DNA of 64,000 nt from the NCBI RefSeq assembly GCF_002847505.1, contig NZ_MXAV01000034.1, forward strand, positions 1-64,000. Direction: 5' to 3'. This DNA comes from Acidithiobacillus marinus (GTDB lineage: Bacteria; Pseudomonadota; Gammaproteobacteria; Acidithiobacillales; Acidithiobacillaceae). Positions within the stretch are counted from its first letter, which is position 1; each line of letters begins with the position of its first letter. Positions 1 to 14,829 of this stretch are shown here, piece by piece. The position numbers and the translations under genes are program-made. The notes below the pieces were generated by a model that did not search any database, was not told the origin of the DNA, and worked only from the letters and a program-made list of their open reading frames with translations.

Positions 1-397
1 GGAGCGTGTCGGTCTCGCCGACTAGGCGGGCTACGGTCAATACCGGCATCTCCCGCACCAGGGTCATGATCAGCGCTTCGAAGAGCAGGGTGAAATGCGA
101 GCCTTCCCGTGCCCAGGGAACAGATATCTGATGCACTCCATGCTCCTGGCACTTCACACGAGGTACGCGGGCATGGAGATAGGCTTCATGCTGGAAGAAA
201 TCCATGTGCCGCCAAGTATGGTCACGGGTATCATGTACCGGACACTCCTCACCACAGACGGAGCAAGCAAAGCGACTACCCTTGGGAAAGTTGATGTGCA
301 GATCCAGGCGTTTCTCCTCCACCGTGAAAGTCACATGATCCACCAACCACGGCGGAACCAATCCTAACGCGAGAGAAAACAGCTCTTCAGGGACCAT
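1..397 (-). CDS. ISL3-family transposase, N-terminal 132 residues (runs off window)
   Basis: N-terminal part of a transposase that cuts and pastes its own insertion sequence. It starts at ATG 397 with GGAG about ten bases upstream and is still open at base 1. Visible features are a zinc-ribbon typical of zf-ISL3 (CSVCG near residue 46, then a downstream Cys-x2-H around residue 92) followed by the beginning of the helix-turn-helix region (LFEALIMTLVREM near residues 110-122). The DDE catalytic domain lies beyond the window. Family assignment rests on the zinc motif plus the GGCTCTTC terminus. Confidence 0.85.
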   Translation of the reverse strand, partial: MVPEELFSLALGLVPPWLVDHVTFTVEEKRLDLHINFPKGSRFACSVCGEECPVHDTRDHTWRHMDFFQHEAYLHARVPRVKCQEHGVHQISVPWAREGSHFTLLFEALIMTLVREMPVLTVARLVGETDTL

Positions 398-470
398 CAG
401 CTAACTCCAATTCAGGGCACGACCGCTCCACAGCATTCTACCCCCTACCCACTCAATCTGACGAAGAGCC
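1..470 (-). mobile_element. ISL3-family insertion sequence, right-hand part
   Basis: The right end of an insertion sequence that runs off the left edge of the window. Its terminus at 470 reads inward GGCTCTTCGTCAG, the start typical of ISL3-family inverted repeats. It carries the 5' part of an ISL3-type transposase gene on the minus strand. The bases just outside, ATTTTTAA at 471-478, are AT-rich and fit the 8-bp target duplication usual for this family; the other copy would lie outside the window. The element interrupts an amine-oxidase-like gene whose reading frame resumes exactly at 471. Confidence 0.85.
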
Positions 471-1205
471 ATTTTTAATCGTCCGCAATGGCGGACGGTG
501 CTGGGCGGGGGGCGTGAATATGTGCAGCGTATCATCCGGGATCTCCCGGATCTGCGTTTGAATACGCCGGTAGAAGCTTTGCGCCCTGATCGTCAGGGCG
601 GAGTGTTGGTCCAGTATGCTGGCGGCCAGGAAGAGCACTTTGATCAGGTCATCTGTGCATTACATGGAGATCAGGCCAGAAAGTTGCTCGGCGAGCACTG
701 GCCTGCCCAGAAGGCGGCGCTGGCGCATTGCCAGTATCAGGACAACTCCGCCTATTTGCACGGGGATGAACGCTTTCTCCCCAAACGTCGTAAGGCCTGG
801 GCAGCCTGGAATTTTCACGAAGAGGGTGCGGCAGATACGCAGCGTTCCGTGGCAGTCACCTACCTGATCAACCAGTTGCAGCCCTTGCCTTTCACTGCAC
901 CGGTCATGGTGACCTTGAATCCGCAACAAGCACCGGCTCCCGAAAAAACCTGGGCACAGTTTCATTATGCCCATCCGGTTTTTGATCACGCTGCCCTGGC
1001 GGGTCAGGAAGCCATCCGTCGTCTGCAGGGAGCCGATGGACTCTGGTTTTGCGGTGCCTGGCTGGGTCATGGTTTTCACGAGGATGGCCTGCGCAGTGCG
1101 GTAGAAGTCGCCAATCGTATGGGTGTTCGTGCTGCCTGGCAGCAACAGGAGAGTTCCGTTTCTGAACCCCGGATGGAAATATGCCCAGAACACGTCCTGC
1201 GTTAA
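471..1205 (+). pseudogene. FAD-dependent amine-oxidase-like protein (COG2907 type), 5' part cut off by insertion sequence
   Basis: The C-terminal about 244 residues of a predicted NAD/FAD-binding oxidoreductase of the COG2907 type. The frame is open right up to the insertion-sequence end, where it reads IFNRPQWRTVLGGGREY, a conserved internal stretch of this family, so the gene was whole before the element landed. The C terminus keeps the FAD-binding signature around LWFCGAWLGHGFHEDGL. The Rossmann N-terminus is missing, so the fragment cannot be active; a GTG at 498 could start a truncated product. Its 3' end overlaps the DUF1365 gene, placing it first in the lipid operon. In other proteobacteria this protein travels with DUF1365 and a cyclopropane synthase homologue and is thought to act on modified fatty acids. 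Confidence 0.85.
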
Positions 1206-1948
1206 CAGGTGGTCTTTTGTTGGGGCGGGTCATGCACCGGCGCCTGCAACCCCCGCGTCCTGCTTTTCATTATCGCACGTTCAGCATTTGCTTCGATCTG
1301 GATGCGCTGCCCCTTTTGCAAAAGGTGCTTTCACGCTTGAGTCCCCTGCGTTTTTATAATCGTGATCACGGTCCCCGTGATGGCTCTGCTTTGTTGCCCT
1401 GGATTCAGGGGTGTTTTGCCGAGCAGCAGATTCCTGCCAGCCGCTATGTGCTGGTTACCTACCCACGTCTTTGGGGCTATGTATTCAATCCAGTCAGTTT
1501 TTGGTTGGGACTGGACGAAAACGACCAGATTCGCGGGGTGTTGGCAGAGGTCAATAATACTTTTGGTGAGCACCATAGTTATCTGCTCGCCCACGCAGAT
1601 CGCCGGATTATTGGGCAGGGAGACTGGTTGACTGCGGACAAAGCTTTTCATGTGTCGCCATTTTTACCTGTAGAAGGGCAATATCGTTTTCGGTTTCGCC
1701 TGCAAGAGCAGAGTTTTCATGCGGATATTCATTATCTGGATGCGGCTGGCGAACCCTGCTTGCTTACCCAGATAGCGGGAAACCGGCAGCCGCTGAGTTT
1801 GCCCAAGGTATGGAGAGCGGTGTTGCAACAGCCCTTCATGACTTTTTCCGTGGTCTTTTTTATTCACTGGCAGGCCTTGAAGCTCTGGCGTGCCCACATC
1901 CCTTTTCACAAAAAACCGGAGCCCCCGCAGCAGGAGATCAGTTTATGA
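1181..1948 (+). CDS. DUF1365 family protein
   Basis: A 255-residue DUF1365 (COG3496) protein of unknown biochemical function. The ATG at 1181 overlaps the preceding pseudogene by 25 bases and gives the family's usual beginning (GRVMHRRL, then FHYRTFS). Conserved family blocks are visible: VTYPRLWGYVFNPVSFW near residue 90 and EVNNTFGEHHSYLL near residue 125, followed by KAFHVSPFLP. Members sit almost always between a COG2907 amine oxidase and a cyclopropane-fatty-acid synthase homologue, as here, and clusters of this type are tied to unusual membrane fatty acids. Its stop overlaps the next start (ATGA), so translation is probably coupled. Because the upstream gene is broken by an insertion sequence, expression of this and the following genes now depends on whatever promoter the element or fragment supplies. 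Confidence 0.9.
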   Translation: MPRTRPALTGGLLLGRVMHRRLQPPRPAFHYRTFSICFDLDALPLLQKVLSRLSPLRFYNRDHGPRDGSALLPWIQGCFAEQQIPASRYVLVTYPRLWGYVFNPVSFWLGLDENDQIRGVLAEVNNTFGEHHSYLLAHADRRIIGQGDWLTADKAFHVSPFLPVEGQYRFRFRLQEQSFHADIHYLDAAGEPCLLTQIAGNRQPLSLPKVWRAVLQQPFMTFSVVFFIHWQALKLWRAHIPFHKKPEPPQQEISL

Positions 1949-3162
1949 GCACTGTATTTGATAACCGTCGCGTTTCTGCGAACAGACTGCCCCGCTCCGC
2001 ACAGGCATTGCTGAAAATGCTGGAAGGCATGGGTTGCGGGCAGTTGACCCTCAAAACGCCGGAGGGAGAAGTCCTGCAGTTTGAAGGTGCAGAATCGGGC
2101 TTGCGTGCGGATTGGGTCATCCATGACTGGCGGATTTTATCCTGGTTGGCTCGGGATGGAGATATCGCCTTTGGACGTGGATACATGGAAGGCTTGTGGG
2201 AGAGCAGTGATCCGGTCGCCTTGCTGCGTCTGGCCATTGCCAATCGGGCTATGGTCGAAAAATATGTGGAGGGTTCGTGGACCCGACGACTGATATTTAC
2301 GCTTTTGAATCGTCTGCTACGCGCCAATACCCGGCGTGGCAGTCGTCGTAACATTGCTTTCCACTATGATCTGGGCAACGATTTTTATCAGCTCTGGCTG
2401 GATAAGAGCATGACCTATTCCAGCGCCCTTTATGACGGAGAAGATACGCTGAGTCTGGAAGCTGCCCAGGAAAGAAAATATGCCCGAGCTCTGGATAATC
2501 TCAATCTGACTCCGGGAGCCCGGATTCTGGAAATTGGCTGTGGTTGGGGTGGTTTTGCCGAATACGCAGCCCGGCGCGGATATCATGTGCATGGCATCAC
2601 CTTGTCCTCCGAGCAGCTGGCTTATGCCCGGGAGCGCTTAAGTCGTCAAGGGCTGGACCATTTCACAGAGTTTTCCCTAACAGATTATCGTGACATGCAG
2701 GGCCATTATGACGGCATTGTCTCCATTGAAATGCTCGAAGCTGTGGGAGCTGAGTGGTGGCCCAGTTATTTCCAGCAAATTCGGCAATTATTGCGGCGCG
2801 GCGGGCGGGCCCTGATTCAGAGTATTACCATTGCTGATGAACGCTTTGCAGCTTACCAGAAAAGCTCCGATTTTATCCGGCATTATGTATTCCCCGGGGG
2901 CATGCTGCCCGCCCCGGCGCGACTTCTGGCAGAAGTCCGTGCTGCAGGTTTGCAGATGCTTGAACGCAAAGACTTTGGTCAGGACTATGCGCGGACCTTG
3001 CACTTATGGCGACAGCAATTTGACACGCAGGAAGAAGCCATTGAGGCGCTAGGTTATGACCAGGTTTTTCGCAGGATGTGGCGTTTTTATCTGATGTACT
3101 GTGAGGCAGGCTTTTCCGAGAAAGAAATTGATCTGACCCAGGTAACTTTGACCCATGGTTAA
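1945..3162 (+). CDS. cfa: Cyclopropane-fatty-acyl-phospholipid synthase family methyltransferase
   Basis: A 405-residue S-adenosylmethionine-dependent enzyme that transfers a methylene or methyl group to the double bond of unsaturated phospholipid acyl chains at the membrane surface. The start at ATG 1945 is preferred over upstream starts because AGGAG lies nine bases ahead and it overlaps the DUF1365 stop. The SAM-binding motif ILEIGCGWGGFAEYAA sits near residue 190, and the family signatures MLEAVG, GGRALIQSIT and FIRHYVFPGGMLP follow. Length is close to E. coli Cfa (about 380). In the company of DUF1365 and the amine oxidase it may belong to the UfaM-like branch, linked to methylated or furan fatty acids and light or singlet-oxygen responses; sequence reading alone cannot separate UfaM from Cfa. 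Confidence 0.92.
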   Translation: MSTVFDNRRVSANRLPRSAQALLKMLEGMGCGQLTLKTPEGEVLQFEGAESGLRADWVIHDWRILSWLARDGDIAFGRGYMEGLWESSDPVALLRLAIANRAMVEKYVEGSWTRRLIFTLLNRLLRANTRRGSRRNIAFHYDLGNDFYQLWLDKSMTYSSALYDGEDTLSLEAAQERKYARALDNLNLTPGARILEIGCGWGGFAEYAARRGYHVHGITLSSEQLAYARERLSRQGLDHFTEFSLTDYRDMQGHYDGIVSIEMLEAVGAEWWPSYFQQIRQLLRRGGRALIQSITIADERFAAYQKSSDFIRHYVFPGGMLPAPARLLAEVRAAGLQMLERKDFGQDYARTLHLWRQQFDTQEEAIEALGYDQVFRRMWRFYLMYCEAGFSEKEIDLTQVTLTHG

Positions 3163-3691
3163 GCTACTCATTTTTTTGTGGATATTACTGCTCAGCCCGT
3201 TGGCCTGGGCAAAGCCGCCCCAGGTATCCTTGCCGACAGCCGTGAAAATGGCCGAGCCGGATTTGCATTTGTTGGGCGCGGGACATCTGAACTGGTTGTT
3301 TTTCAGCGTTTATAATGCGGCACTCTGGGTGAGTGGTAATGATTACACGCCAACCCAGCCCTTTGCATTGGGAATTGATTATGAACGGGACTTCAGCAGC
3401 CACGAACTGGTAAAAACTTCGCTGAAAGAAATGCGTCGGCTGGACGGCCTGAGCCCTGCGCAATTGGTCAAATATCAGCTTGATTTGAAAAACGCCTTTC
3501 CTGACGTGAAATCCGGGGATCAGATTGTTGGTTTGTGTGTGCCCGGAAAATACACTGCCTTCTATTATAATGGCGTATTGCACAGTAAAATTAATGATCC
3601 GCAATTCTGTCCGGACTTTTTTGCCATCTGGCTGAGTCCCAGGACCCAAGTGCCGGGCTTACGGAAAAACCTGCTGGGCAGGCATGAGTAA
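3155..3691 (+). CDS. Chalcone-isomerase-like exported protein
   Basis: A 178-residue protein with a clear signal peptide (hydrophobic stretch LLIFLWILLLSPLAWA, cleavage likely after AWA near residue 19). The rest resembles the chalcone-isomerase-like fold seen in bacterial periplasmic proteins: the stretch GAGHLNWLFFSVYNAALWV and the central KTSLKEMRR fit that family. Bacterial members are not known to be true chalcone isomerases; fatty-acid binding is the more probable role, which suits its place after the cyclopropane synthase homologue. It overlaps its upstream neighbour by eight bases and its downstream neighbour by eight, so it is clearly part of the same operon. Confidence 0.75.
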   Translation: MVKLLIFLWILLLSPLAWAKPPQVSLPTAVKMAEPDLHLLGAGHLNWLFFSVYNAALWVSGNDYTPTQPFALGIDYERDFSSHELVKTSLKEMRRLDGLSPAQLVKYQLDLKNAFPDVKSGDQIVGLCVPGKYTAFYYNGVLHSKINDPQFCPDFFAIWLSPRTQVPGLRKNLLGRHE

Positions 3692-4976
3692 AGGTCGGCA
3701 ACAGGGTATCCCTTCCTATAGAACGCTCCTGTTTTATGCGCCCTTGGGAATGCCTTTGGCTTTTGGGGCTTTGCCCGTCTATTTGCTGATTCCTCATCTG
3801 TATGCCCAGAATTTCGGTATCTCTCTGAGTTTGTTGGGAATCATTTTGCTGGCGGTACGTTTGCTGGATGCCATACAGGACCCGCTGATCGGCCTTTGGA
3901 GTGACCGGTGGGCAGAACAGCATCATGGCCGCCGGGTGCTGATTCTTTTGGGTATCCCAGGCATGATTCTGGGTTTTTACGGGCTTTTCAATCCGTGGCC
4001 GGGCTCGGTCTGGCTCAGCCTGGCTTGCTCACTGATCATTTTTTATCTGTTTTTCAGTGTGACCAGTGTCAACTATCAGGCTTTGGGGGCAGAATTATCC
4101 CGGGATTACAATGGCCGCACCTGGCTCACGACCAGTCGCGAGGCGGGCGCCTTGATAGGTGTACTGCTGGCCGCTGCCTTGCCGGACGTATTGATGCAGC
4201 AATGGGGCAGAGTGCAAGGCCTGGAACTATTTGCGGGTATTTTTGCTCTGTTTTTGATATTGGCTGTATTCCCTTTACTGAAATCCAGCATGCAGCGCCC
4301 GGTCTTTGGCGAAAAGCTCCCTTGGTGGGCCTTTTTTTCAGCCTTGAAGCATAAGCCATTACGACACCTGCTGATTATTTATTTGCTTTCACAATCCGCC
4401 AATACTGTAGCCGGAACACTTTTTTTCTTTTTTGTCGATGAAATTCTCGGGGCACACTCACTGGCGCCTTTGTTTCTGTTGGCCTATTTTCTTTCGGGAG
4501 CATTAGGCATGCCTTTATGGTTATGGCTATCGGGACGTTTCAGTAAAAGTCTGGCCTGGCGTCTGTCCATGTTGGTCGCCATCGTAGCCTTTGCCGGTGC
4601 TTATTTTATTCGCTCGGGGGAGGTCTGGCCCTATGCCCTGATTTGCGTTTTGACGGGGCTGACTCTGGGGGCTGATCAGGCCTTACCGCCCAGCCTTCTG
4701 GCTGATCATAGTGACCGGGACACGCGCAGTCGTCCGGGAAATTATTTCGGTTTATTCAATTGGGTGGGTAAGGCAGCCACGGCTTTGGGTGCCGGCTTGA
4801 TATTGCCGTTATTACAAGGTTTAGGCTATTCAGCCGGACAAAATCTATGGGCCTTATCTTTTTGTTATGCCCTGGTGCCAGCGCTGATCAAAATACTGGC
4901 CGTTGTGCTCATGGGTGTCTGGTCCTTAGAGGGCCGGAATTCTTTGGTTCCATTAATGGGAGGGTATCATGAATAA
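3684..4976 (+). CDS. MFS transporter of the GPH (MelB-like) type
   Basis: A 430-residue inner-membrane transporter with about twelve hydrophobic segments. The conserved cation-symporter-like block DAIQDPLIGLWSDRW near residue 55 is the usual D-x3-DP-x3-G-x2-SDR signature of the glycoside-pentoside-hexuronide/COG2211 branch, and a second copy-like motif SDRDTRSRPGNYFGLFNW appears near residue 345. Substrate is unknown. Members of this branch occur repeatedly in DUF1365/cfa/DUF3833 clusters, where a role in moving a lipid or lipid precursor has been guessed. It overlaps the genes on both sides by eight bases, consistent with a single transcript. Confidence 0.85.
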   Translation: MSKGRQQGIPSYRTLLFYAPLGMPLAFGALPVYLLIPHLYAQNFGISLSLLGIILLAVRLLDAIQDPLIGLWSDRWAEQHHGRRVLILLGIPGMILGFYGLFNPWPGSVWLSLACSLIIFYLFFSVTSVNYQALGAELSRDYNGRTWLTTSREAGALIGVLLAAALPDVLMQQWGRVQGLELFAGIFALFLILAVFPLLKSSMQRPVFGEKLPWWAFFSALKHKPLRHLLIIYLLSQSANTVAGTLFFFFVDEILGAHSLAPLFLLAYFLSGALGMPLWLWLSGRFSKSLAWRLSMLVAIVAFAGAYFIRSGEVWPYALICVLTGLTLGADQALPPSLLADHSDRDTRSRPGNYFGLFNWVGKAATALGAGLILPLLQGLGYSAGQNLWALSFCYALVPALIKILAVVLMGVWSLEGRNSLVPLMGGYHE

Positions 4977-5559
4977 AATACAGCAATTATTGGGTTTGTC
5001 CTTGGTCATGGCTTTGGCAGGTTGTGCGACGCAGCCCCAGGAATATGCGCAAAGCCGGCCAAAGTTCGATCTGAAGACCTTTTTTAATGGCCCCCTGATG
5101 GCCCAAGGCGTGTTTGAAAATCGTTCTGGTAAGGTTGTGAATCGTTTTGTGGTGCGGATGATGGGTACCTGGCAAGGCGATCAGGGCACCCTGGTAGAAA
5201 ACTTCACTTATTTTGATGCTGCAGGTAAAAAAACCTATCAACAACGGGTTTGGCATCTGACCGAAACCAGTAACCATCATTTTGTGGGCAGTGCTGAAGG
5301 ATCAGCCGGGAATGTAGCCAAGGCATCTGGAGATGCCTTTGGTTTTGCTCTGCACTGGTCCTACGACGTGCGTCAACCGGTAGGCAAAACTTTTTATCAT
5401 CTGCATGCCAATGACTGGATGTATATGATTACACCCAATACGTTGATGGATCATACCGATGTGACCTGGTATGGGCTGCATGCCGGTAATATTTTTCTGG
5501 AAATGCATAAACTCCCCGATACCGCCGAAAACCGGGCAAAAGTAGCGGAAGTGAAGTAA
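4969..5559 (+). CDS. DUF3833 family lipoprotein
   Basis: A 196-residue predicted lipoprotein. The N-terminus MNKIQQLLGLSLVMALAGC carries a lipobox (ALAGC) with Cys19 as the lipidation site, so the protein should be anchored to a membrane facing the periplasm. The mature part matches DUF3833: a short FFNGPLMAQGVFENRSGKVV block, then MMGTWQGDQGTL, and a final NDWMYMI-x-TLM-DHTDV segment. Function is unknown. It closes the DUF1365-cfa operon and ends three bases before a convergent permease gene. A second, non-lipoprotein DUF3833 gene lies at 13517-14071. Confidence 0.85.
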   Translation: MNKIQQLLGLSLVMALAGCATQPQEYAQSRPKFDLKTFFNGPLMAQGVFENRSGKVVNRFVVRMMGTWQGDQGTLVENFTYFDAAGKKTYQQRVWHLTETSNHHFVGSAEGSAGNVAKASGDAFGFALHWSYDVRQPVGKTFYHLHANDWMYMITPNTLMDHTDVTWYGLHAGNIFLEMHKLPDTAENRAKVAEVK

Positions 5560-5561
5560 GT

Positions 5562-6938
5562 TTATTCGTCGACCACGTCGATGATTTGATGCAATTTCCG
5601 GGGTTGGTAGCGTGCCCATAGCAAACCCCGGATAAACACGATGATCACCAGCAGCACAAAAAGCACGCTGGCAGCCCCTTCTCCCCCTTTTGGTAAAGGC
5701 CATAAACTCACTTGGAGTACCTTGAGCAAGAGTGGCAGGGAAAGTCCGGCAACTATCAGGCTCATCCAGCGCCAGGGGTGTTGCTGACGAAACAAAAACA
5801 GCGGTGTGGCAATGTTGGCGAGGCTGTAAATCAGCAGAAAAGCCAATCCGGTAAAAGTGCCAAACGTGCCCACAACGGACAATATTGAAAACCGGGCCAT
5901 GCTGACTACTACCGTACTGATCATGACCAGCAGGGCTAACAAGCCCAGGGCGCGGGTCGGTGTATGGTGCAGCGGGTGGCGAAAATGCAGATAGGGACTG
6001 ATGACCTGATGTCCGGCCATACTGAATAAAATCCGAGAGATACTGTTGAGGGTGGCAATAGTTGCGGAAAAAGCGGCGGTAGCCATGGCTAAATCCGAGA
6101 AGATACCCAGCCAGGGTCTGCCAATCGCTTCGGCTATGCGGTTGAGTGGTGCCGGGCTGTTGCCAATGGCCGAAGGAATATGGGAAAAAGCGAGAATTTC
6201 GATATAGGCCATGGCTACAAAAAAGATGCCTACCATGCCCACGGAAAACAGCATGACCTTGGGGATGGCGGTACGAGCCGCCCGGGTTTCTCCGGCGAGA
6301 TTACCCGCTGTTTCAAAACCGCCATAAGCCAAGAGGGACAGAATCAACGCCTGGGTAAACGGGCCTTGCTGCAGCTGCGAAAATTCCCATTGATGGGGAT
6401 CGCGCCAACCATAATATCCCAGAGTGAAGGCGGCGATGAGGATAATACAGGCAATGGAAAAAATCTCGACCCACAACCCCCAACGTGCAGAAATTTCAAT
6501 CCCGCGCCGTGCCAGTCGCCAGGCAACGAGTAGATACAGCAGAGCGATCACCGCAATCCAGCCAATGCCCTGGACCGGCCAGAAAAAGGCCAGCGCCTGC
6601 TCCAGGAACAATCCCCCCAATAGCGGGGCGGCTGCCAGAGCACCGAAATATCCGGTAATCATGACAAAACCCGCCACCATGCCAGCGATGGGGTGCAAAG
6701 CCTTGCCGAGATAAAAAAACAGGGAGCCGGGCGAGGGAAAATGCCGGGCGAGAATGCCAACTTGCACAGCCACCAACATCATTAACAAGCCGATGACACT
6801 ATAGGCCAGCCAGGTAAAATGGCCGCTGTGCATAGCTACCAGTGAGATCGTCACCGCGGGCATGGCTGACGGGGTAATGTTGGCAACGGCGTGGCCCCAT
6901 ATTTCGCTGGGGCTGACAGAGGAGGGGCGGGAGCGCAT
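5562..6938 (-). CDS. APC-family amino acid/polyamine permease
   Basis: A 458-residue integral membrane protein with about twelve transmembrane segments and the APC-superfamily core. The signature YGGFETAGNLAGE near residue 212 followed by IPKVML is the consensus substrate-binding and helix-6 region of amino-acid permeases. The substrate cannot be told from sequence reading. It lies 72 bases downstream of the acyl-ligase gene in the same direction; a TATAAT hexamer on the minus strand at 6975-6980 suggests it may also have its own promoter. It converges on the DUF3833 gene with only two bases between the stops. Confidence 0.85.
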   Translation of the reverse strand: MRSRPSSVSPSEIWGHAVANITPSAMPAVTISLVAMHSGHFTWLAYSVIGLLMMLVAVQVGILARHFPSPGSLFFYLGKALHPIAGMVAGFVMITGYFGALAAAPLLGGLFLEQALAFFWPVQGIGWIAVIALLYLLVAWRLARRGIEISARWGLWVEIFSIACIILIAAFTLGYYGWRDPHQWEFSQLQQGPFTQALILSLLAYGGFETAGNLAGETRAARTAIPKVMLFSVGMVGIFFVAMAYIEILAFSHIPSAIGNSPAPLNRIAEAIGRPWLGIFSDLAMATAAFSATIATLNSISRILFSMAGHQVISPYLHFRHPLHHTPTRALGLLALLVMISTVVVSMARFSILSVVGTFGTFTGLAFLLIYSLANIATPLFLFRQQHPWRWMSLIVAGLSLPLLLKVLQVSLWPLPKGGEGAASVLFVLLVIIVFIRGLLWARYQPRKLHQIIDVVDE

Positions 6939-7010
6939 AGGGCCGATTACTCGCTATTCAGTCAAAAGCGAAAAATTATAAGGGAGTCCGTCAGAAAAGC
7001 GAAAGCCGTT

Positions 7011-8321
7011 TTATTCAGGCCAGTTTTCATACAGCCAGCGTCGGTTGGGTTTGCCCTGAGAGCTGGGTGCCTTCTCCCAGAAGGTCTGTCCGGGAACATG
7101 TAACCGGTATGGTTCGTGCCAATGCCGAATGAAGGCGGCTTTTTGCGCTTCAGACACGTTTGCGACGACGCTCAAATGCCGCGACCCCGGTGCACCAAGG
7201 ACGATGCTGTCTGCTTGAGGATAGACATCCATCAAGCGTGCCTCTTCAGCTTCTGATCGGACACTCTGTCCGTTTGCAAGGCTGAATCCGCCATCATGCC
7301 TTCCCAGCCAATATAGACATCCTTGAGGATTCTGATAGACCTCATCACCACTATTGCGCCAACCCTGTTCCTGAGGCATGTTCTGCCAACCTGATGCATC
7401 CAGGAAGGCATCTGCCTGACCGGGTGATTGATAGCGCAAGGTTCCCCCGGCAATAGTGCATTGCACGAGGGGGAATCCCAGAATAAAGGGATGAAACTCA
7501 CCAGGGAGTCCCAGAGTGATGCCCGGCCCGGCTTCTGTTTGTCCATAACCGACCCGGAGCTTGCTGCCCTGAAGCTGTTCTGCCAATTGGGTTCCTAGCG
7601 GCGCGCCACCAATGATGCCCCCCTCCAGTGCGCCTATTTGTTGCTGATCGAGCAAGCGGGCAATGCGCGGAACCGTGAAAAGATGCGTGCAGTCAGGAGG
7701 TGGGTGACGGGCGCGCTGTGCGTTTACCTGAATGACGCTGCCTGCAATGCCGGCGGTAAGTAACTCCAGCACGCCGGCAAAAACATGCGCCCAGGGCAGT
7801 GTGTTCCAGATGAGGCTGTCGGTACTCAGCTGCAATGCCGGTAGGTGGGCATCCACTTGCCATTGCAAGGCTGAAAAACGCAGACGATACGCATTTCCTG
7901 CCCCCATGCTGCCCGAGCTCCACATAATCAGCGCGGCATCCAGATCCTCCTGCGGAAGACCATTACAGGGGATTTCCTGCAGACGCTGCGCTGAATAATG
8001 GATCCACAAGGCCGGTTGAAGCCGTTGCAGACGTCGCCGGGTTTCCTGGGGGTGCAGGTTGGGTAAGGGACAAAAAGTCCAGCCGCCCATCCAACAGGCC
8101 AGCATGTAAGCCACATAGGCCGGACTATTGGGAATACTGACGACAACCCGTGCACCGGGTAGCAGCTTGCTGCGCCGCCAGCGGGTTTTGATGCGCGCGG
8201 CGCGGGCCCAAAGCGATTGTCCGGGCCAGGCATGGCTGATTCCGTTGTGCTGCCAGTCCAGGGCAAAGCCATGATGCATGCCCGCAGCCAGTCGCTGCAA
8301 AAAAGCATCGCGATCCGCCAC
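7011..8321 (-). CDS. Short AMP-forming acyl ligase, candidate p-coumarate-activating enzyme
   Basis: A 436-residue member of the acyl-adenylate-forming (ANL) superfamily, 80-120 residues shorter than ordinary acyl-CoA synthetases. Core motifs are present: the phosphate loop IMWSSGSMG near residue 132, the YGQTEAGPG motif near residue 262, SGDEVYQNPQG and GRHDG around residues 345-365 (the usual Arg of GRxD is conserved, the next residue differs), and the catalytic-lysine region QGKPNRRW near the C terminus. The short 4-coumarate-CoA ligases that activate chromophore for photoactive yellow protein are also about 390 residues. Its operon position two bases after orf104 and downstream of the PYP-like gene makes p-coumarate activation the leading hypothesis; another aryl or fatty acid remains possible. 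Confidence 0.75.
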   Translation of the reverse strand: MADRDAFLQRLAAGMHHGFALDWQHNGISHAWPGQSLWARAARIKTRWRRSKLLPGARVVVSIPNSPAYVAYMLACWMGGWTFCPLPNLHPQETRRRLQRLQPALWIHYSAQRLQEIPCNGLPQEDLDAALIMWSSGSMGAGNAYRLRFSALQWQVDAHLPALQLSTDSLIWNTLPWAHVFAGVLELLTAGIAGSVIQVNAQRARHPPPDCTHLFTVPRIARLLDQQQIGALEGGIIGGAPLGTQLAEQLQGSKLRVGYGQTEAGPGITLGLPGEFHPFILGFPLVQCTIAGGTLRYQSPGQADAFLDASGWQNMPQEQGWRNSGDEVYQNPQGCLYWLGRHDGGFSLANGQSVRSEAEEARLMDVYPQADSIVLGAPGSRHLSVVANVSEAQKAAFIRHWHEPYRLHVPGQTFWEKAPSSQGKPNRRWLYENWPE

Positions 8322-8323
8322 TG

Positions 8324-8638
8324 TCAGGACACCAAATCCGGAGACATATCTCTCAAAAAGCGACTAATTTGTTGGCGCAAATCTGCGGAGATTTCCTCTT
8401 CGTGGTGGCAAATTTCCTGATCCACCATCTGTAGGAGCTGTACCTGTTCGGCGCTGAGAAATTGTTGTCCATCCTGCTGGAAGGCATTGTTCAGGATCTG
8501 CCAAAGGCTGCTTAAACAAACATGATATAGTTGTTTTTGTTCCTGCTGAATCTCCGGAAGATCAGCCACCGTTTGTATTAACTCATCGGCATATGCCAGA
8601 AAATGGATGATCACATTGCTTTCAACGGGCGCAGACAT
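8324..8638 (-). CDS. Small conserved-looking helical protein of unknown function in pyp operon
   Basis: A 104-residue protein that I do not recognise. It is predicted to be almost wholly alpha-helical, soluble and acidic, with no signal peptide or membrane segment and many Gln and Glu residues (for example EIQQEQKQLYH and ICHHEEEISADLRQQI). Its ATG overlaps the stop of the PYP-like gene (ATGA) and its own stop lies two bases before the ligase start, so it is sandwiched and translationally coupled inside the PYP-like operon. That position suggests a role as a partner of the sensor or a chromophore-loading helper, but nothing in the sequence shows which. Confidence 0.7.
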   Translation of the reverse strand: MSAPVESNVIIHFLAYADELIQTVADLPEIQQEQKQLYHVCLSSLWQILNNAFQQDGQQFLSAEQVQLLQMVDQEICHHEEEISADLRQQISRFLRDMSPDLVS

Positions 8639-9042
8639 CAGCCGAGGTCCTCGTAAAGTTGAATGACACGATCAATGAAAATAAAAAAGAGCGGACTTTT
8701 GCGAATATCGTAAAGCATATGAATATGCGCAGAAATCGGACGAATACGATAAGTAAACGTATAGTAAAAATGCGTATCCATGGTTCCATCCTGAATACCT
8801 TGACGAAACCGGCCACGAAACAATCGGCTGGCAGTACAGGGCGCAACTTCGGTAAAAAAATTCCTACCCAGAACTTCTGAGACGCTGAGTCCGCTGAGAC
8901 GTGATTCTGCAGCATTGAAAATTTTTACCAGAGCATGATTGTCCAGGGCAATAATCCCAAAACCTTGACGATCAGCCATGGTCGCGGTGATTTGTTCAGG
9001 GTGGTTCAGGATCTCGTCGGCAACAAAATTTTTAGCGAACAT
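8638..9042 (-). CDS. pyp: Photoactive-yellow-protein-like PAS protein
   Basis: A 134-residue single PAS domain that aligns with Halorhodospira halophila PYP without gaps over residues 1-113 as I recall that sequence. Kept in register are Phe6, Asn43-Ala44-Ala45-Glu46, Gly51, Asn61-Phe62-Phe63, the chromophore attachment site APC69T, Gly77, Phe79, Gly82, Tyr94-Thr95-Phe96, Tyr98, Pro102 and His108-Met109. Differences at the chromophore pocket are Tyr42 to Phe, Thr50 to Ser and Arg52 to Leu. PYP binds p-coumarate as a thioester on Cys69 and senses blue light; the retained Cys and Glu46 support that here, while Phe42 and Leu52 would change colour or kinetics. The C terminus is about nine residues longer. 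ATG 9042 follows AAGGAAC. It heads an operon with orf104 and an acyl ligase, divergent from a LitR-like regulator. Confidence 0.85.
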   Translation of the reverse strand: MFAKNFVADEILNHPEQITATMADRQGFGIIALDNHALVKIFNAAESRLSGLSVSEVLGRNFFTEVAPCTASRLFRGRFRQGIQDGTMDTHFYYTFTYRIRPISAHIHMLYDIRKSPLFFIFIDRVIQLYEDLG

Positions 9043-9230: not shown

Positions 9231-9257
9231 TCATATGTCAAGAAGACGTCATATACA
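9231..9257 (+). promoter_or_regulatory. Candidate LitR-type operator: direct repeat with 18-bp period
   Basis: TCATAT occurs at 9231-9236 and again at 9249-9254, exactly 18 bases apart, just upstream of the MerR-type gene. The second copy extends to TATACA (9252-9257). The spacing equals that of the PplR1 (class II LitR) box described in Pseudomonas putida, two hexamers of the T(G/A)TACA type separated by 12 bases. The first half (TATGTC) fits only partly. The site lies between the divergent pyp-like operon and the regulator, so it could serve autoregulation. Confidence 0.4.
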
Positions 9258-9271
9258 AAAAGGGAACATTG

Positions 9272-10183
9272 GTGGATATCAGTACGGATGAAGTAGATGC
9301 GCCGCAATTTCCGATCAGTGTGGTCGAGCAGGAAACCGGTATTTCCAAAGAGTTGTTACGGATGTGGGAACGGCGGTATGCCTTTCCGGTGCCTGGTCGT
9401 GATCTGACAGGAAACCGCTTGTACAGCCGTGCCCAGATCGACCGTTTGCACCAGATCAATCGGCTGCTGGCGGCAGGCTATCGGCCGGGGGCTGTAGTGG
9501 GTGCAGATGCCCAGAAAATCGAGAATCTGATTGCCGAAATTCCGGTGCCGTCAGCGGTCCCGCGAGAAGATCCGGAAGCTCTGGCCGAAGCCTTGGCGAT
9601 GCTTGCCTCGGACCGCCCGGAACGATTGTTGACTTACTTGCGTCGTCAGTTGCAGCAGGAAGGTCTTCCACGCTTTGTATTACAGGTTGCTGCGCCGTTG
9701 CTGCAGCGCGTTGCCCGCGCCCGGCTTACGGGAGAAATTCAGCCCTACCGGGAAGCCTGTCTTCAGGAGTTGTTGAGAGAATGTCTTTATGTGGCCACCA
9801 GTCAGCTTCCTGTCGGAGTGGCACGGTTGCGGGTTTTGCTGGCGAGTTTTCCCGGGGAGGGGCGTGCTCTGGAATTACAGATGACCCGGGCCTTGCTGAT
9901 GGGTGAGGGAGTAGATGTTCTGTATATCGGGCCTGAGCCAGAACTGGATGATCTTCTGGCGGCAGCAGAAGCCTGTCATGTGCAGGTCATTCATATGGCG
10001 ATATCGGCGGCGGCGGTCAATTCACAAAATCGTATCTACCTGAAGGAATTGCAAAAACGGATACCGTCTGATATTACCCTCTGGTTGGGAGGGAGTGGTT
10101 GTCTCGAGCTCGGCAGTGGCAGAGATGAATCCTGTTTTGTGCGCTTACAGGATATGTTGGAGGCAATACGGGAATGGTCCTGA
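9272..10183 (+). CDS. LitR/CarH-like MerR-family regulator with degenerate B12 domain
   Basis: A 303-residue transcription factor. GTG 9272 is preferred to TTG 9269 because AGGGA then sits six bases upstream. Residues 12-80 form a MerR winged-helix domain (VEQETGISKELLRMWERRYAFP, then NRLYSRAQIDRL); a four-helix middle and a cobalamin-type C-terminal fold follow (LLASFPGEGRALELQ, VLYIGPEPELDDLL, LWLGGSG). In light-sensing LitR/CarH proteins adenosyl-B12 is held by an Glu-His pair in the helical domain and the His of a GE-x-H motif; here these read Glu-Ala and GEGR, so both histidines are gone. That matches LitR proteins which do not bind B12 and act with a separate photoreceptor (LOV partners in Pseudomonas). 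The divergent PYP-like gene is the obvious candidate partner. Confidence 0.8.
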   Translation: MDISTDEVDAPQFPISVVEQETGISKELLRMWERRYAFPVPGRDLTGNRLYSRAQIDRLHQINRLLAAGYRPGAVVGADAQKIENLIAEIPVPSAVPREDPEALAEALAMLASDRPERLLTYLRRQLQQEGLPRFVLQVAAPLLQRVARARLTGEIQPYREACLQELLRECLYVATSQLPVGVARLRVLLASFPGEGRALELQMTRALLMGEGVDVLYIGPEPELDDLLAAAEACHVQVIHMAISAAAVNSQNRIYLKELQKRIPSDITLWLGGSGCLELGSGRDESCFVRLQDMLEAIREWS

Positions 10184-10221
10184 CCTCTTCACTGTGACCA
10201 GCTTTTGTTTAATACAAATGC

Positions 10222-10281: not shown

Positions 10282-11337
10282 ATGGCGAATACCGATTCAG
10301 TACTGGTAGTTGGAGCTGGTCCAGCGGGTCTTTCTGCAGCAGCAACCATTGCATCTATGGGTAAAAAAGCAGTTATCGTCGAAAAAGAAGATGTCTTGGG
10401 CGGGGCACCCATCATATCAGGATATGCCCGCTTGGTGCCTTCCGGCGAATGGGCTAAGGATGCTATCGGCCGTATGGTTAGCAGAGTGACAGGTAACAAA
10501 AATGTTTCTATCCATACCTCTACTAAAGTGACTGATTTCAGTGGAGAACCCGGTCAATTTACTGCAACTTTGAGTTCTGGCGAAAAAGTGGAAACCGGCG
10601 CCGTGGTTCTCGCCACAGGGTTTACGCACTTTGATTCCATCAATAAACCCGAATGGGGATTTGGCACTTACGAAGACGTATTGACCACAACCCAAATGGA
10701 GCAAATGGTGGCCACCGGGCAAATTCGTTGTCCATCAGATGGACGCGTCCCTGAAAGAGTCGCCATTTTGTTGTGCGTGGGTTCTCGTGATCGACAAATC
10801 GGCAGAGAGTGGTGTTCCAAGATCTGTTGTACGGTTTCCACCAACTTAGCAATGGAAATCAAGGAAATATCACCTACTACCGATGTATTCATTTATTACA
10901 TGGATATTCGTACCTTTGGATTGTACGAAGACAAGTTTTACTGGAAGAGCCAAGAAGAGTTCAAAACCAAATTTGTGAAAGCGCGCATTGCTGAAGTAAC
11001 CAAATCTCCTGATGGTCGTTTGTTGGTTAAGGGCGAAGATACACTGGTCAAAAGACCCATTGTTATTCCCATGGATCTGGTGGTGCATGCCATTGGTATG
11101 GATCCCAATGCACTGAATCCAGAAATTTCCAAGGTTTTTGGTGTTGCTCTAGAAAAACACGGGTTCATTGATCGAGCAGAACAATACACCAATACCCAGG
11201 GAACAACACGAAGAGGCATTTATGTCTGTGGTGCGGCAACGGGTCCGGAGACTATTGATGACTCCATGGCTCAAGGACAATCAGCTGGAGCTCGCTCAGT
11301 GGCCGATCTTTATCAGCTTTTATCTGCCTCTGCTTGA
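10282..11337 (+). CDS. sHdrA-type FAD oxidoreductase (orphan copy)
   Basis: A 351-residue flavoprotein closely resembling HdrA of the sulfur-oxidising heterodisulfide-reductase-like (sHdr) pathway, which oxidises sulfane sulfur in the cytoplasm of Acidithiobacillus and relatives. Residues 7-40 form the FAD-binding Rossmann motif (VLVVGAGPAGLSAAAT, then VEKEDVLGGA). The cysteine cluster REWCSKICC near residue 177 and the second dinucleotide motif YVCGAATGPETIDDSMAQG near residue 315 are typical. Length matches sHdrA (about 350), so it is complete. The usual partners hdrC1, hdrB1, hyp, hdrC2, hdrB2 are absent on both sides. AT-rich codon use differs from the GC-rich flanking genes, hinting at separate acquisition or a different expression class. 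It is monocistronic with its own promoter. Confidence 0.85.
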   Translation: MANTDSVLVVGAGPAGLSAAATIASMGKKAVIVEKEDVLGGAPIISGYARLVPSGEWAKDAIGRMVSRVTGNKNVSIHTSTKVTDFSGEPGQFTATLSSGEKVETGAVVLATGFTHFDSINKPEWGFGTYEDVLTTTQMEQMVATGQIRCPSDGRVPERVAILLCVGSRDRQIGREWCSKICCTVSTNLAMEIKEISPTTDVFIYYMDIRTFGLYEDKFYWKSQEEFKTKFVKARIAEVTKSPDGRLLVKGEDTLVKRPIVIPMDLVVHAIGMDPNALNPEISKVFGVALEKHGFIDRAEQYTNTQGTTRRGIYVCGAATGPETIDDSMAQGQSAGARSVADLYQLLSASA

Positions 11338-11385: not shown

Positions 11386-13431
11386 CAGGGCTCCGTCAAG
11401 CTCGCCAGATATAGTAGCAGAGGTTTTCGCCACTGATTTTAATGGTGGTTTGAAGGGGCTATAGTTGGTGGAAATGCGGCATTTTCAGGCGATTTTGGGT
11501 GCAGAATCGTGAATGGGGTGGCTGACGGACGCAGCTCGCCCTCCGGAGCTATTCTCGGATAGGTAAACCCCGTGGTGGCGCCTCAGTATCCGAGTTGGCG
11601 GAGCGTTTTGTGCGCGCTGGCGGCGAAATCCCGGCACGCTTTGGCGATATTCTTGACGCCAGTGAGACGCATAATGCTCATGGCCAGTTCGCGCAAGGTC
11701 GCCATCATATGGGGACCGTTCTGGGTACGGACTTGGGAGAGGTCCTCGTGGAAAGTCACATCGCGGACATGATGGTTCCGGTTTTCAATTTCCCAGTGAC
11801 CACGGGCCAAGCCCAACAGATTTTCGGGCGTGGCACGATCCGGGGTCAGGCTGGTGAGTCCGAAGGCATAATCATCCCGAATCGTGCCCTCTTTGCTGTT
11901 GATGGTGGAGCGTTGGATCAGGAAAGCTTGTCCGACATGCGGAAAATGGAGGCCGGTTGCCCGGGTGGCGACGATGATTTTGCGGTATTCAAAGCGGCCA
12001 TGCCCGACCTCTGTGGTTTCAGCGTTGAGGGGGAAAATCGCCCCAAGGGAGGCACGTCAGACGGTCGCGGAGTTTTCGTTGATTGCCTTTGACGGCGGTG
12101 AAGAGATAATCGGCTTTCTTGTCTTCGACGAGGAAGCGGGCGGTCTCCCGCTGGGTATGCAGGGCATCGGCGGTGACGACCTTGCCCGCGATGTTGACGT
12201 CCTGGAGCAGGTTGCGCAGTTCTGGAATTTCGTTGGTTTTCCGGGCGATTTCTTTTTGCGCGATGGTGGCCCCCTGTCCATGCAGGAACGCGCTGAGCAG
12301 ATGCACCTGAGCGCCGTCTGCGCGTGCGGCCCCTTTGAGGACTTTGCCATCGACGGCCACCGCTTCAAAGCCCGCCGTACCCAGTAGCCAGGCGCCGATC
12401 GCCGCATCCAGCGCCTCCACATCGGCCCCTTGCAAGACGCGCCGGATGGTCGGTTCGGAGGGGGCGAGGTAGCGCTTGGTTTTGGGATCGAATCGGGCGC
12501 GGATGCGCTTCAATTGAGCCTGGGTCAAGCGACCGCCCCACTCGGCGATGGCGGCATAACTTTCGGCCCGCGTCAGGACAGCGGCCACGGCCACCGTCAG
12601 GATGGCCGGGAGGGGATGCTGCTTGCCTAGTTTGCTGCGGGTATCGGGAAGGCGGAAAAAGATTTGGCGCAAGCCTTCCATTTGCGCGTCGCTCAACGTC
12701 ACGGTTTGCATGGGGGTATGGGTCCATTCGAGTTGGGGCTGCGGCTGGGCCAACCAGGCCCGCGCCTGTGGATGGAGAGGAAAGAGCAGAAGACGTTTAG
12801 GTTGGCCGTGGTGGACATAGCCACCACCGGGACGGCGGGCGAAGCCCTTGGTTCCGCCGACATCCACCCAGTTGGCGGCCCGGTAGCAGGCACCGGTAAA
12901 ACGGGGGGATTCCACAAAGGTCTCAGCCAGCACGATGGGATGCCCATAGACGGATTGCCAGTCCGCAGAGAGCCTGTGCAGGTTCAGCGCCAGAATACGG
13001 GACGCCAGATTCGGGAAGGATTCTCCGGGCAGGATCAGAAAACGGGCATTGTTGGCGATGAGATGCAAGCGCTGGCGGCGCAAGATCCAGGACCAGCCGA
13101 TCCACCGATCCCGCGCCTGGCATTGAAAAGCGGCGGCATGCCAGCCCAGTAACGCTACCCAGCGACCATCGAGCGTAGCCACATAGCGCAGGTTACGGCC
13201 CGCCAAGGTGCGAAAGCCCCGGTAGTGATACGTTTGCATCAGCGTATTCCAGCGTTCCCGCTCCGTGGGCAGGATGGGTCGCACCTGAACACGGTGCAGG
13301 CTGGCTTGCTGGTTTTCGGTGAGAGTTGGGACTTCCATGCGGCAAAAGTTACCGCATTCATCCTGAGAAGTCCAGAAAAACCCTTTGTGCTACTCCATCA
13401 GCAGCTTAGATGGAAGGTTGACAGGGCCCTG
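11386..13431 (-). mobile_element. ISAs1-family insertion sequence with DUF4338 domain, copy 1 (2046 bp)
   Basis: A complete insertion sequence bounded by imperfect inverted repeats (CAGGGCTCCGTCAAG at the left end in this orientation, CAGGGCCCTGTCAACC reading inward from 13431) and flanked by a 10-bp direct duplication. It encodes one frameshifted transposase on the minus strand. The element landed between shdrA and the hairpin that must have been its terminator (13436-13462). The second copy at 36209-38255 is 2047 bp and lies in the opposite orientation; the single extra base there is a C near 36952. At 2.05 kb the element is longer than usual ISAs1 members (about 1.2-1.5 kb) because of the extra N-terminal domain. 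Confidence 0.93.
11583..13338 (-). pseudogene. DUF4338 (DruA-like)-ISAs1 transposase fusion, frameshifted, copy 1
   Basis: A transposase of about 585 residues in two frames. Residues 1-230 match DUF4338, the domain of Druantia protein DruA (YHYRGFRTLAGRNLRYV, RDRWIGW, NARFLILP, ANWVDVGGTKGFARR). From about residue 245 it is an ISAs1-type DDE transposase (KLGKQHPLPAILTVAVAAVL, VAVDGKVLKGAARADG, HLLSAF, VTADALHTQ, KGNQRKL). The first frame stops at 12019; a +1 shift at the five-base run 12029-12033 (CCCCC on the coding strand) leads into the second frame ending at 11583, which contains GHWEIENRNHHVRDV, the block with the catalytic Glu. The same run is found in copy 2, so it is either an ancestral mutation or a programmed +1 frameshift at a CCC-C site. 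I list it as a broken gene because the single frame lacks the last catalytic residue. Confidence 0.85.
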
Positions 13432-13516: not shown

Positions 13517-14071
13517 ATGAAAAAATACGCATCAACCCTACCCGTGTTTCAGCTCCATCAATTTTTTAATGGCCCTTCTGTAGCAACGGGCATATTCCAG
13601 GATCGCTCCGGTAAGGTGGTCAACCGCTTTATCATGCACTTGCTGGGCACCTGGCAGAGCGAATCGGTTGGCTCACTCAGTGAAAAATTTCTATTTCTGG
13701 ATAATAACGGTAAAGCGACACATGCAGACCGTCTGTGGCAGTTGCAAGTCACGGGAGGGCATACCTTTGCCGCTACGGCACAAGGTTCTGCGGGTGATAT
13801 TGTGGGTGTTGCCCAAGGGGAAGCCGAGGGATTTGCCATGCGCTGGCGTTATACGTTGCGTCAGCCTGTGGGGAAGCGTTTTTTTAACTTGCGTGTGGAT
13901 GACTGGATGTATCTGATTGATAAAGATCACGTCATTAATCGTAGTAAAATGCGGTTTTGGGGGTTTTTCGTAGGAGATGTCAGTATTGAAATTCATCGTT
14001 TGGCAGATACAGCGGAAAATCGCGAGGCTATGATGCAGCTGCCCCGCCTGGGCGATCCGGTACCCGTATGA
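13517..14071 (+). CDS. DUF3833 family protein, soluble paralogue
   Basis: A 184-residue second DUF3833 protein. It shares the blocks of the lipoprotein at 4969-5559 (HQFFNGPSVATGIFQDRSGKVVNRF, LLGTWQ, RWRYTLRQPVGK, VDDWMYLIDKD) but has neither signal peptide nor lipobox, beginning MKKYASTLPVFQLHQFF, so it should stay in the cytoplasm. The stop overlaps the following SDR gene by four bases (ATGA). DUF3833-SDR pairs recur in DUF1365/cfa clusters of other proteobacteria, suggesting that this pair and the operon at 471-5559 form one functional set now split by other genes. Function unknown. Confidence 0.82.
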   Translation: MKKYASTLPVFQLHQFFNGPSVATGIFQDRSGKVVNRFIMHLLGTWQSESVGSLSEKFLFLDNNGKATHADRLWQLQVTGGHTFAATAQGSAGDIVGVAQGEAEGFAMRWRYTLRQPVGKRFFNLRVDDWMYLIDKDHVINRSKMRFWGFFVGDVSIEIHRLADTAENREAMMQLPRLGDPVPV

Positions 14072-14829
14072 GTAGCTACTGGCAAGGAAAACGTTGTTGG
14101 CTCATCGGTGCCAGTACCGGTATTGGCGCGGCTTGTGCAAAGGCCCTAGATGACCAGGGAGCAAAAATTGCTCTGACGGCGCGTAATCCCGACAAACTCG
14201 AACAACTCGCCAGCCAGCTGGGCAATGAGCCCCTGATCTGCCCCGCTGATGTGACCCAAACAGAGCAGCTACAAAAAGCCTATACAGTCATTAAACAGCA
14301 CTGGGGCGGCCTGGATCTCCTGCTGTTTCTGGCTGGGACTTATCAGGCAGCACGGAGCTGGGATCTGGATCCGACCTTGGCAAGACAGGCTATGACGACC
14401 AATTATCTGGGGGCCGTGGACGCGGTGCACGCAGTGCTTGGGGATTTACTGACAGCAGGGCAGGGGCAGATTGTCCTGACTTCCAGTGTTGCCGGTCTGC
14501 GGGGGCTGCCACAGTCTCTTTACTACGGACCGAGCAAGGCCGCATTGACCCATCTTGCCGAAGTGCTCCATCTTGACCTTGAAGACAAAGGTATCAAGGT
14601 TCAGGTGATTCACCCCGGTTTTGTCGCCACCCCGCTGACAGCCCATAATGATTTTCCTATGCCCAATCTGATCAGCCCCGAGCAAGCGGCCAGGGAAATT
14701 TTGCGAGGAATGCAAGGGAATCATTTTGAAATACATTTTCCCCGCGCTTTTACCCGTAAACTTAAATTGCTGCGTTGTCTGCCCTATCGTTGGTATTTTT
14801 CTTTGGTGCATCGTTCCACAGGTTTATAA
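14068..14829 (+). CDS. Short-chain dehydrogenase/reductase
   Basis: A 253-residue classical SDR. The NAD(P)-binding motif GASTGIGAA lies near residue 15, the NAG-equivalent reads LAGTY near residue 90, and the catalytic Ser-Tyr-Lys are present (LTSSVAGL, then YYGPSKAAL near residue 150). ARNPDK near residue 40 suggests NADPH preference. The C-terminal tail is basic and aromatic (PRAFTRKLKLLRCLPYRWYF), as in SDRs that sit on membranes and handle lipid substrates. It is translationally coupled to the upstream DUF3833 gene, and its stop faces the convergent SDR gene one base away. Confidence 0.85.
   Translation: MSSYWQGKRCWLIGASTGIGAACAKALDDQGAKIALTARNPDKLEQLASQLGNEPLICPADVTQTEQLQKAYTVIKQHWGGLDLLLFLAGTYQAARSWDLDPTLARQAMTTNYLGAVDAVHAVLGDLLTAGQGQIVLTSSVAGLRGLPQSLYYGPSKAALTHLAEVLHLDLEDKGIKVQVIHPGFVATPLTAHNDFPMPNLISPEQAAREILRGMQGNHFEIHFPRAFTRKLKLLRCLPYRWYFSLVHRSTGL

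Follow-up and report, generated by a model that had tools for sequence, protein, structure and literature searches.

A photoactive yellow protein homologue beside a LitR/CarH-type regulator without B12 contacts in Acidithiobacillus marinus: a candidate exchange of light sensors

What would a sulfur-oxidising, acid-loving bacterium do with a photoactive yellow protein (PYP), and through which partner would such a protein signal? The stretch of Acidithiobacillus marinus DNA analysed here (64,000 nucleotides from contig NZ_MXAV01000034.1; hereafter referred to as the window) encodes a homologue of PYP, and we found no paper on PYP in Acidithiobacillus. In a 2025 census of 984 PYPs (PMC12826048), which describes the signal output of single-domain PYPs as an open question, the partners listed are kinases, chemotaxis receptors and c-di-GMP enzymes; transcription factors are not among them. 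Seen with its surroundings, the pyp gene is no longer just a curiosity but leads to a hypothesis that is specific and can be tested. We propose, with moderate confidence, that the locus is a light switch, in which PYP has replaced B12 as the light input to a MerR-type repressor of a photo-oxidative-stress regulon.

The PYP homologue and its operon

The operon has the gene order pyp, orf104 and AMP-forming ligase:

8638..9042, minus strand: PYP homologue, 134 amino acids, with C69, E46, F42, S50, Y94 and F96 and a C-terminal extension ending in EDLG
8324..8638, minus strand: orf104, a small all-helical protein; 5' end overlapping the 3' end of pyp; absent from A. concretivorus
7011..8321, minus strand: ANL-superfamily AMP-forming acyl ligase, 436 amino acids, GTG start; A10 lysine K424 invariant; not a member of TIGR02372

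The homology of the 8638-9042 product to PYP is well supported by both sequence and fold. In a profile search, the protein scored 97.8 bits against the PYP model TIGR02373, compared to 40.6 bits against the Pfam PAS family and 19.9 bits against the generic PAS S-box. As the first of these scores does not reach the curated TIGR02373 cut-off of 143.05 bits, the protein is properly named a PYP homologue and not a TIGR02373 equivalog. The best sequence matches among solved structures were H. halophila PYP (1otd, E 8e-23) and R. centenum Ppr, followed by a steep drop. The AlphaFold2 model (pLDDT 85) superimposes on PYP crystal structures with a Z score of 18.6 over 121 residues (rmsd 1.9), whereas the best non-PYP PAS domain reaches a Z score of 12.6, and the predicted fold is hence that of PYP as opposed to a generic PAS domain. 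Both the profile comparison and the modelling had been suggested as checks in the initial annotation, and both place the protein nearest to PYP. The gap-free alignment with H. halophila PYP described there holds to approximately residue 112, and residues F6, E46, C69, Y94, F96, Y98 and H108 are retained as listed; the list passed over two replacements, Tyr42 by phenylalanine and Arg52 by leucine, which are found in every member of the family Acidithiobacillaceae that has the protein.

Cys69 and Glu46, together with an F62-F63-x-x-V66-A67-P68-C69 pocket in a protein of approximately 125 residues, define membership of the PYP family (PMC12826048), and all of these features are present. The chromophore-pocket residues E46, P68, C69, Y94 and F96 are invariant among the Acidithiobacillaceae PYPs. 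Phenylalanine at position 42 is found in 8.9% of PYPs, and the Y42F variant of H. halophila PYP occurs as a 446 nm and a 400 nm form side by side (PMC12826048). F42 in place of Y42 makes for a weaker classical pocket and counts against reading this PYP as a light sensor. All Acidithiobacillaceae PYPs also continue past the end of the H. halophila protein with a conserved C-terminal extension that ends in EDL(G/A) (window 8638-8661), and this tail is a candidate for partner binding.

The coupling of pyp to orf104 and an AMP-forming ligase, recognised in the initial annotation, is a conserved arrangement. The operon is present in 13 of 29 Acidithiobacillaceae genomes and in three genera, with Acidithiobacillus montserratensis, A. 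sulfurivorans, A. concretivorus and Igneacidithiobacillus among the relatives that carry it, and its genes are under purifying selection (dN/dS 0.04-0.14). In A. concretivorus (L038 10402-10476), pyp, the ligase gene and the regulator gene described below are kept and orf104 is gone from between pyp and the ligase gene, so that the module can do without orf104. The orf104 product matched no protein family, PDB sequence or fold significantly; a weak match to Cut8 (E 2e-4) lay under the cut-off and was not used. In the genus of the window, the ligase gene is followed by an amino-acid permease gene (window 5562-6938); no permease gene was found after the ligase gene in the other two genera, where a short-chain dehydrogenase (SDR) gene takes that place.

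The locus resembles the H. halophila pyp-pcl-tal operon in that a single-domain PYP fold with C69, E46, Y94 and F96 is encoded ahead of an AMP-forming ligase gene. However, the PYP differs from that of H. halophila by F42, L52 and the conserved C-terminal extension, and the operon differs by the inserted orf104, a ligase of another family, the lack of an ammonia-lyase gene and a divergent LitR/CarH-type regulator gene.

The divergent regulator, its gene cluster and operator-like dyads

The initial annotation recognised the operon but mentioned neither the CarH-like regulator encoded divergently from it nor the lipid/photo-oxidative genes that flank it:

9269..10183 (TTG start at 9269, or GTG start at 9272), plus strand: LitR/CarH-type MerR regulator; W131, H132, H142 and H177 replaced
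10282..11337, plus strand: HdrA-like flavoprotein gene, behind a dyad; adjoins the regulator gene in 13 of 13 loci; inferred regulon member

The regulator joins a MerR helix-turn-helix to CarH-like C-terminal domains and is thus a LitR/CarH protein in the wide sense (PDB 5c8d, E 3e-16; 93 bits against NF052513, short of the cut-off of 400). It shares its domain order and helix-turn-helix with class I LitR/CarH proteins, the AdoB12 photoreceptor repressors to which Thermus thermophilus CarH belongs. In contrast to these, it does not keep the B12-contact set W131, H132, E141, H142 and H177: in all 12 aligned Acidithiobacillaceae regulators, W131 is replaced by R or E, H132 by L, H142 by A, R or Q, and H177 by R, and the protein could thus probably not hold AdoB12. 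The helix-turn-helix is nearly invariant among the same 12 proteins, and the dN/dS of the regulator gene lies within the same range of 0.04-0.14. W131, E141, H142 and H177 are intact in all nine outgroup regulators, which come from unrelated Gammaproteobacteria. The Acidithiobacillaceae regulators form one clade on a long branch of the regulator tree; as this tree is unrooted and leaves the order of the outgroups unresolved, the tree alone is no proof that B12 was lost rather than gained. Cobalamin adenosyltransferases (PF02572 or PF01923) were found in none of the 12 PYP-bearing Acidithiobacillaceae genomes searched, and at least one of the two families in seven of the eight outgroup genomes. 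PYP-bearing cells are therefore probably unable to make the AdoB12 that a CarH sensor requires. No LOV motif was found within approximately 7 kb of the outgroup regulators. From the gene order, we infer that PYP is the partner of the regulator as a blue-light PAS sensor.

The genes on the two flanks of the operon and regulator are the following, in addition to the HdrA-like gene:

417..1205, plus strand: FAD amine-oxidase-like (AmOx) gene, C-terminal part; the N-terminal part and the promoter with its dyad are at the end of contig C27
1181..1948, plus strand: DUF1365 protein, cluster member
1810..3162, plus strand: cyclopropane/UfaM-type fatty-acid synthase family protein (CMAS; CFA in the text); true start probably later than 1810
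3155..3691, plus strand: Chalcone_3 (chalcone isomerase-like) protein, cluster member
3684..4976, plus strand: MFS_2 transporter, cluster member
4969..5559, plus strand: DUF3833 protein, cluster member
13517..14071, plus strand: second DUF3833 gene; beside the HdrA-like gene in relatives, with a transposase-like ORF between them here
14068..14829, plus strand: SDR; follows DUF3833 in the outgroup clusters L070 and L078

One flank thus carries AmOx-DUF1365-CFA-Chalcone_3-MFS_2-DUF3833 and the other the HdrA-like, second DUF3833 and SDR genes. The genes for PYP, the ligase, the regulator and the DUF1365 protein are confined to an identical set of 13 of the 29 genomes; as they are linked, this co-occurrence represents one module and not independent associations or functional evidence. 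The whole cluster or parts of it adjoin CarH-like regulators in five other gammaproteobacterial loci (L070, L073, L075, L076 and L078), which belong to different families. In Vibrio cholerae, blue light induces the CFA synthase gene VC1122, in a response carried by ChrR and a MerR-like protein (PMC5241685). The R. sphaeroides UfaM protein belongs to the photo-oxidative and light response (PMC7380195), and ufaM is located in the pmlR1 region of P. mendocina (PMC9758184). The neighbouring regulator and the putative regulon are of a light or photo-oxidative type, and the view that PYP acts as a photoreceptor gains support from them.

Operator-like dyads are present on both sides of the regulator gene:

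9246..9258, no strand: operator-like dyad ACGTCATATACAA, degenerate with one mismatch; located between pyp and the regulator gene, immediately ahead of the latter
10205..10217, no strand: operator-like dyad TTGTTTAATACAA, in the gap between the regulator and HdrA-like genes

A 13-bp WTGT-N5-ACAW dyad is found in the regulator-HdrA gap of all 13 Acidithiobacillaceae loci, as an exact match in 11 and with one mismatch in two, and approximately 1% of random windows of the size of this gap contain an exact match. The same dyad recurs in eight of nine outgroup loci, none of which had been used to derive it, and is located there at or next to the promoter of the regulator gene or of AmOx. The one-mismatch dyad at 9246-9258 is weak, being expected by chance in 17% of random 180-bp windows, and autoregulation in the genus of the window is therefore unproven. 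At the AmOx promoter, which for the source genome is located on contig C27, two T(A/G)TAC(A/T)-N11-(A/T)GTA(C/T)A dyads are present in two loci of the same genus (L035 and L037), versus 0.01-0.03 expected in 20 kb. The sequence TTGTASTATAC occurs once or twice per genome in most of the 13 genomes, and 16 of its 20 sites fall at the PYP/regulator locus, an enrichment that taken alone is partly circular since the motif was read off some of the counted sites. At the locus, the sites precede AmOx, and one genus has them in the pyp-regulator gap as well; the site in genome G004 was placed by its coordinates beside DUF1365, and the four matches elsewhere look like background. Neither the outgroup loci nor the two remaining genera gave any dyad in a looser scan with N9-N13 spacing, and only the 13-bp form is shared between the groups. 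Row L093 of the promoter alignment had the wrong orientation and was disregarded. When up to three mismatches to the P. putida PplR1 operator TRTACA-N12-TRTAYA were allowed, the window contained 78 matches, close to the 72 expected by chance, and we make no claim for this spacing.

A functional PYP could also signal via a different partner, and the MerR protein would then merely be its transcriptional regulator or neighbour. The candidates would be orf104 and, at some other place in the genome, a histidine kinase or a c-di-GMP enzyme. Such a route would fit the known PYP outputs, which are MCPs, histidine kinases and GGDEF/EAL proteins (PMC12826048), yet kinase, GGDEF and MCP genes are absent from the operon and its neighbours, even if a PYP-MCP fusion is encoded near a CFA cluster in the gammaproteobacterial locus L082. 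As for orf104, it is coupled to pyp in most species, but A. concretivorus does without it while retaining pyp, ligase and regulator, and it is the regulator gene from which pyp diverges in 13 of 13 loci. We consider signalling through another partner unlikely.

The ligase and the source of the chromophore

If it is a photoreceptor, the PYP homologue must obtain a chromophore without the known lyase and ligase. The 7011-8321 product, likened in size and motifs to the p-coumarate ligase of PYP in the initial annotation, does not belong to the known family of that enzyme: no match to TIGR02372, the PYP-associated 4-coumarate--CoA ligase, was obtained at E<=1 (cut-off 334.7 bits), nor was this gene the one that the model picked out in a search of the genome, whereas the ligase that adjoins PYP in locus L080, used as a positive control, scored 335.9 bits. 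The A10 lysine K424 and the GYGQ(T/S)EAGPG and SGD motifs are kept in 13 of 13 sequences, and the usual A3 lysine is missing from these Acidithiobacillaceae ligases. The solved structures nearest to the ligase of the window include a feruloyl-CoA synthetase, along with further ligases for aryl and acyl substrates, which makes a hydroxycinnamate a possible substrate. A search for the ligase on plasmids returned just one weak match (25%).

That the window contains no tyrosine ammonia-lyase gene was already noted in the initial annotation, and our survey extends this to the aromatic ammonia-lyase family PF00221 in all 29 Acidithiobacillaceae genomes, those of A. marinus and 28 relatives. The same search was positive in five of 14 control genomes, and in control locus L083 the lyase gene adjoins pyp. 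With no PF00221 member in either operon or genome, the locus is not a canonical pyp operon with a tyrosine ammonia-lyase. According to the published census, a lyase is encoded in 5% and a ligase in 32% of pyp operons (PMC12826048), so that it is common for either gene to be missing from the operon. The harder puzzle is the lack of the lyase family from the entire genome. Together with a ligase outside TIGR02372, it makes the source of the chromophore a point against the light-sensor reading.

One might speculate that the protein is not a photoreceptor, that it carries a ligase-loaded acyl group on Cys69 or senses a thiol or acyl ligand, and that its role is to inform the regulator of damaged lipids or of an aromatic acid. 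The missing ammonia-lyase, the unusual ligase, F42, the TIGR02373 score under its curated cut-off, a presumably dark habitat and the lipid-modifying neighbours would all agree with such a function. What it does not account for is the invariance of E46, C69, Y94, F96 and P68 throughout the family, nor the intact B12 photosensor site in the ancestral-type regulator of the same cluster, and we regard a function unrelated to light as quite improbable.

The proposed sensor exchange

We return to the light switch proposed above, in which PYP takes the place of B12. The regulator would derive from, or share a common ancestor with, B12-based LitR/CarH light regulators, and would then have lost the residues that hold adenosylcobalamin in this family. 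The operon's own AMP-forming ligase would charge Cys69 of PYP with a hydroxycinnamate-like acid. The charged protein would go through a photocycle and supply the light signal, light being the presumed physiological stimulus, and would relieve repression by the MerR protein, which sets the sign that we assume for the regulation. Targets of such a de-repression would be a membrane-lipid/photo-oxidative-stress regulon made up of AmOx-DUF1365-CFA-Chalcone_3-MFS-DUF3833-SDR and the HdrA-like flavoprotein. By analogy with the LOV/LitR pair of P. mendocina, PYP could act as an anti-repressor in direct contact with the regulator.

In P. mendocina, a short LOV protein binds directly and in a light-dependent manner to PmlR2, a class II LitR protein that works without B12, and thereby relieves the repression exerted by it (PMC9758184). 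The PmlR2/PmSB-LOV system resembles the locus described here in having a MerR/LitR-type regulator without a working B12 site near the gene for a small PAS-fold blue-light sensor, light-stress genes that include a CFA/UfaM-type enzyme, and TGTACA-type operators. However, the sensor here is a PYP and not a LOV protein, and its contact with the regulator is a proposed one. Unlike in PmlR2, the B12-type domain is still recognisable with its ligands gone, and the dyads are of the 13-bp WTGT-N5-ACAW and N11-spaced forms and not TGTACA-N12-TGTACA. There is also a likeness to the singlet-oxygen/furan-fatty-acid regulon of R. sphaeroides (ChrR/SigmaE; UfaM, UfaD, UfaO; PMC7380195), which shares a gene of the CFA/UfaM-type methylase family and the light/photo-oxidative setting, but the control here is of MerR type, and the likeness is drawn at the level of the gene family rather than gene by gene with RSP1087-1091.

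Tentatively, the locus may represent a further, fourth type of MerR light switch. A CarH-type repressor would have lost its B12 sensor in a lineage unable to make AdoB12, and its light-dependent, directly binding anti-repressor would now be a PYP, loaded by a ligase outside the known family and supplied with chromophore independently of tyrosine ammonia-lyase. In the titles and opening parts of the abstracts searched, we found no PYP coupled to a MerR or LitR protein. The locus points to a specific PYP partner protein, to target promoters and to an operator-like sequence, all of which can be tested in vitro. It would also provide a natural example of one regulator family swapping its light sensor, in bacteria that are not regarded as light-responsive. 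That the locus is instead the remnant of a light response once gained by horizontal transfer, now decaying and with hardly any function left, is very improbable, given the dN/dS values of pyp, ligase and regulator and the synteny and dyads preserved across three genera, although the module is missing in 16 of the 29 genomes and this genome has a split amine-oxidase gene and a transposase-like ORF inside the cluster.

Of the split AmOx protein, the end of contig C27 (L084 3109-3711) encodes residues 1-201 and the start of the window residues 178-439, so that an insertion probably disrupts the gene in this genome. The transposase-like ORF (window 12019-13338) separates the HdrA-like gene from the second DUF3833 gene, which are adjacent in relatives. 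A 24-base stretch that is identical at 12794 and 36823 points to another copy of the transposase-like element at approximately 36300-37600. In the L082 locus (34-7317), which belongs to another gammaproteobacterium, the PYP-MCP fusion is encoded a few genes from a DUF1365-CFA pair, and this arrangement is a second link between PYP and CFA-type clusters. Finally, the stand-alone HdrA-like gene is 88-98% conserved and always follows the regulator gene behind the dyad; a heterodisulfide-reductase-related flavoprotein may thus be under light control.
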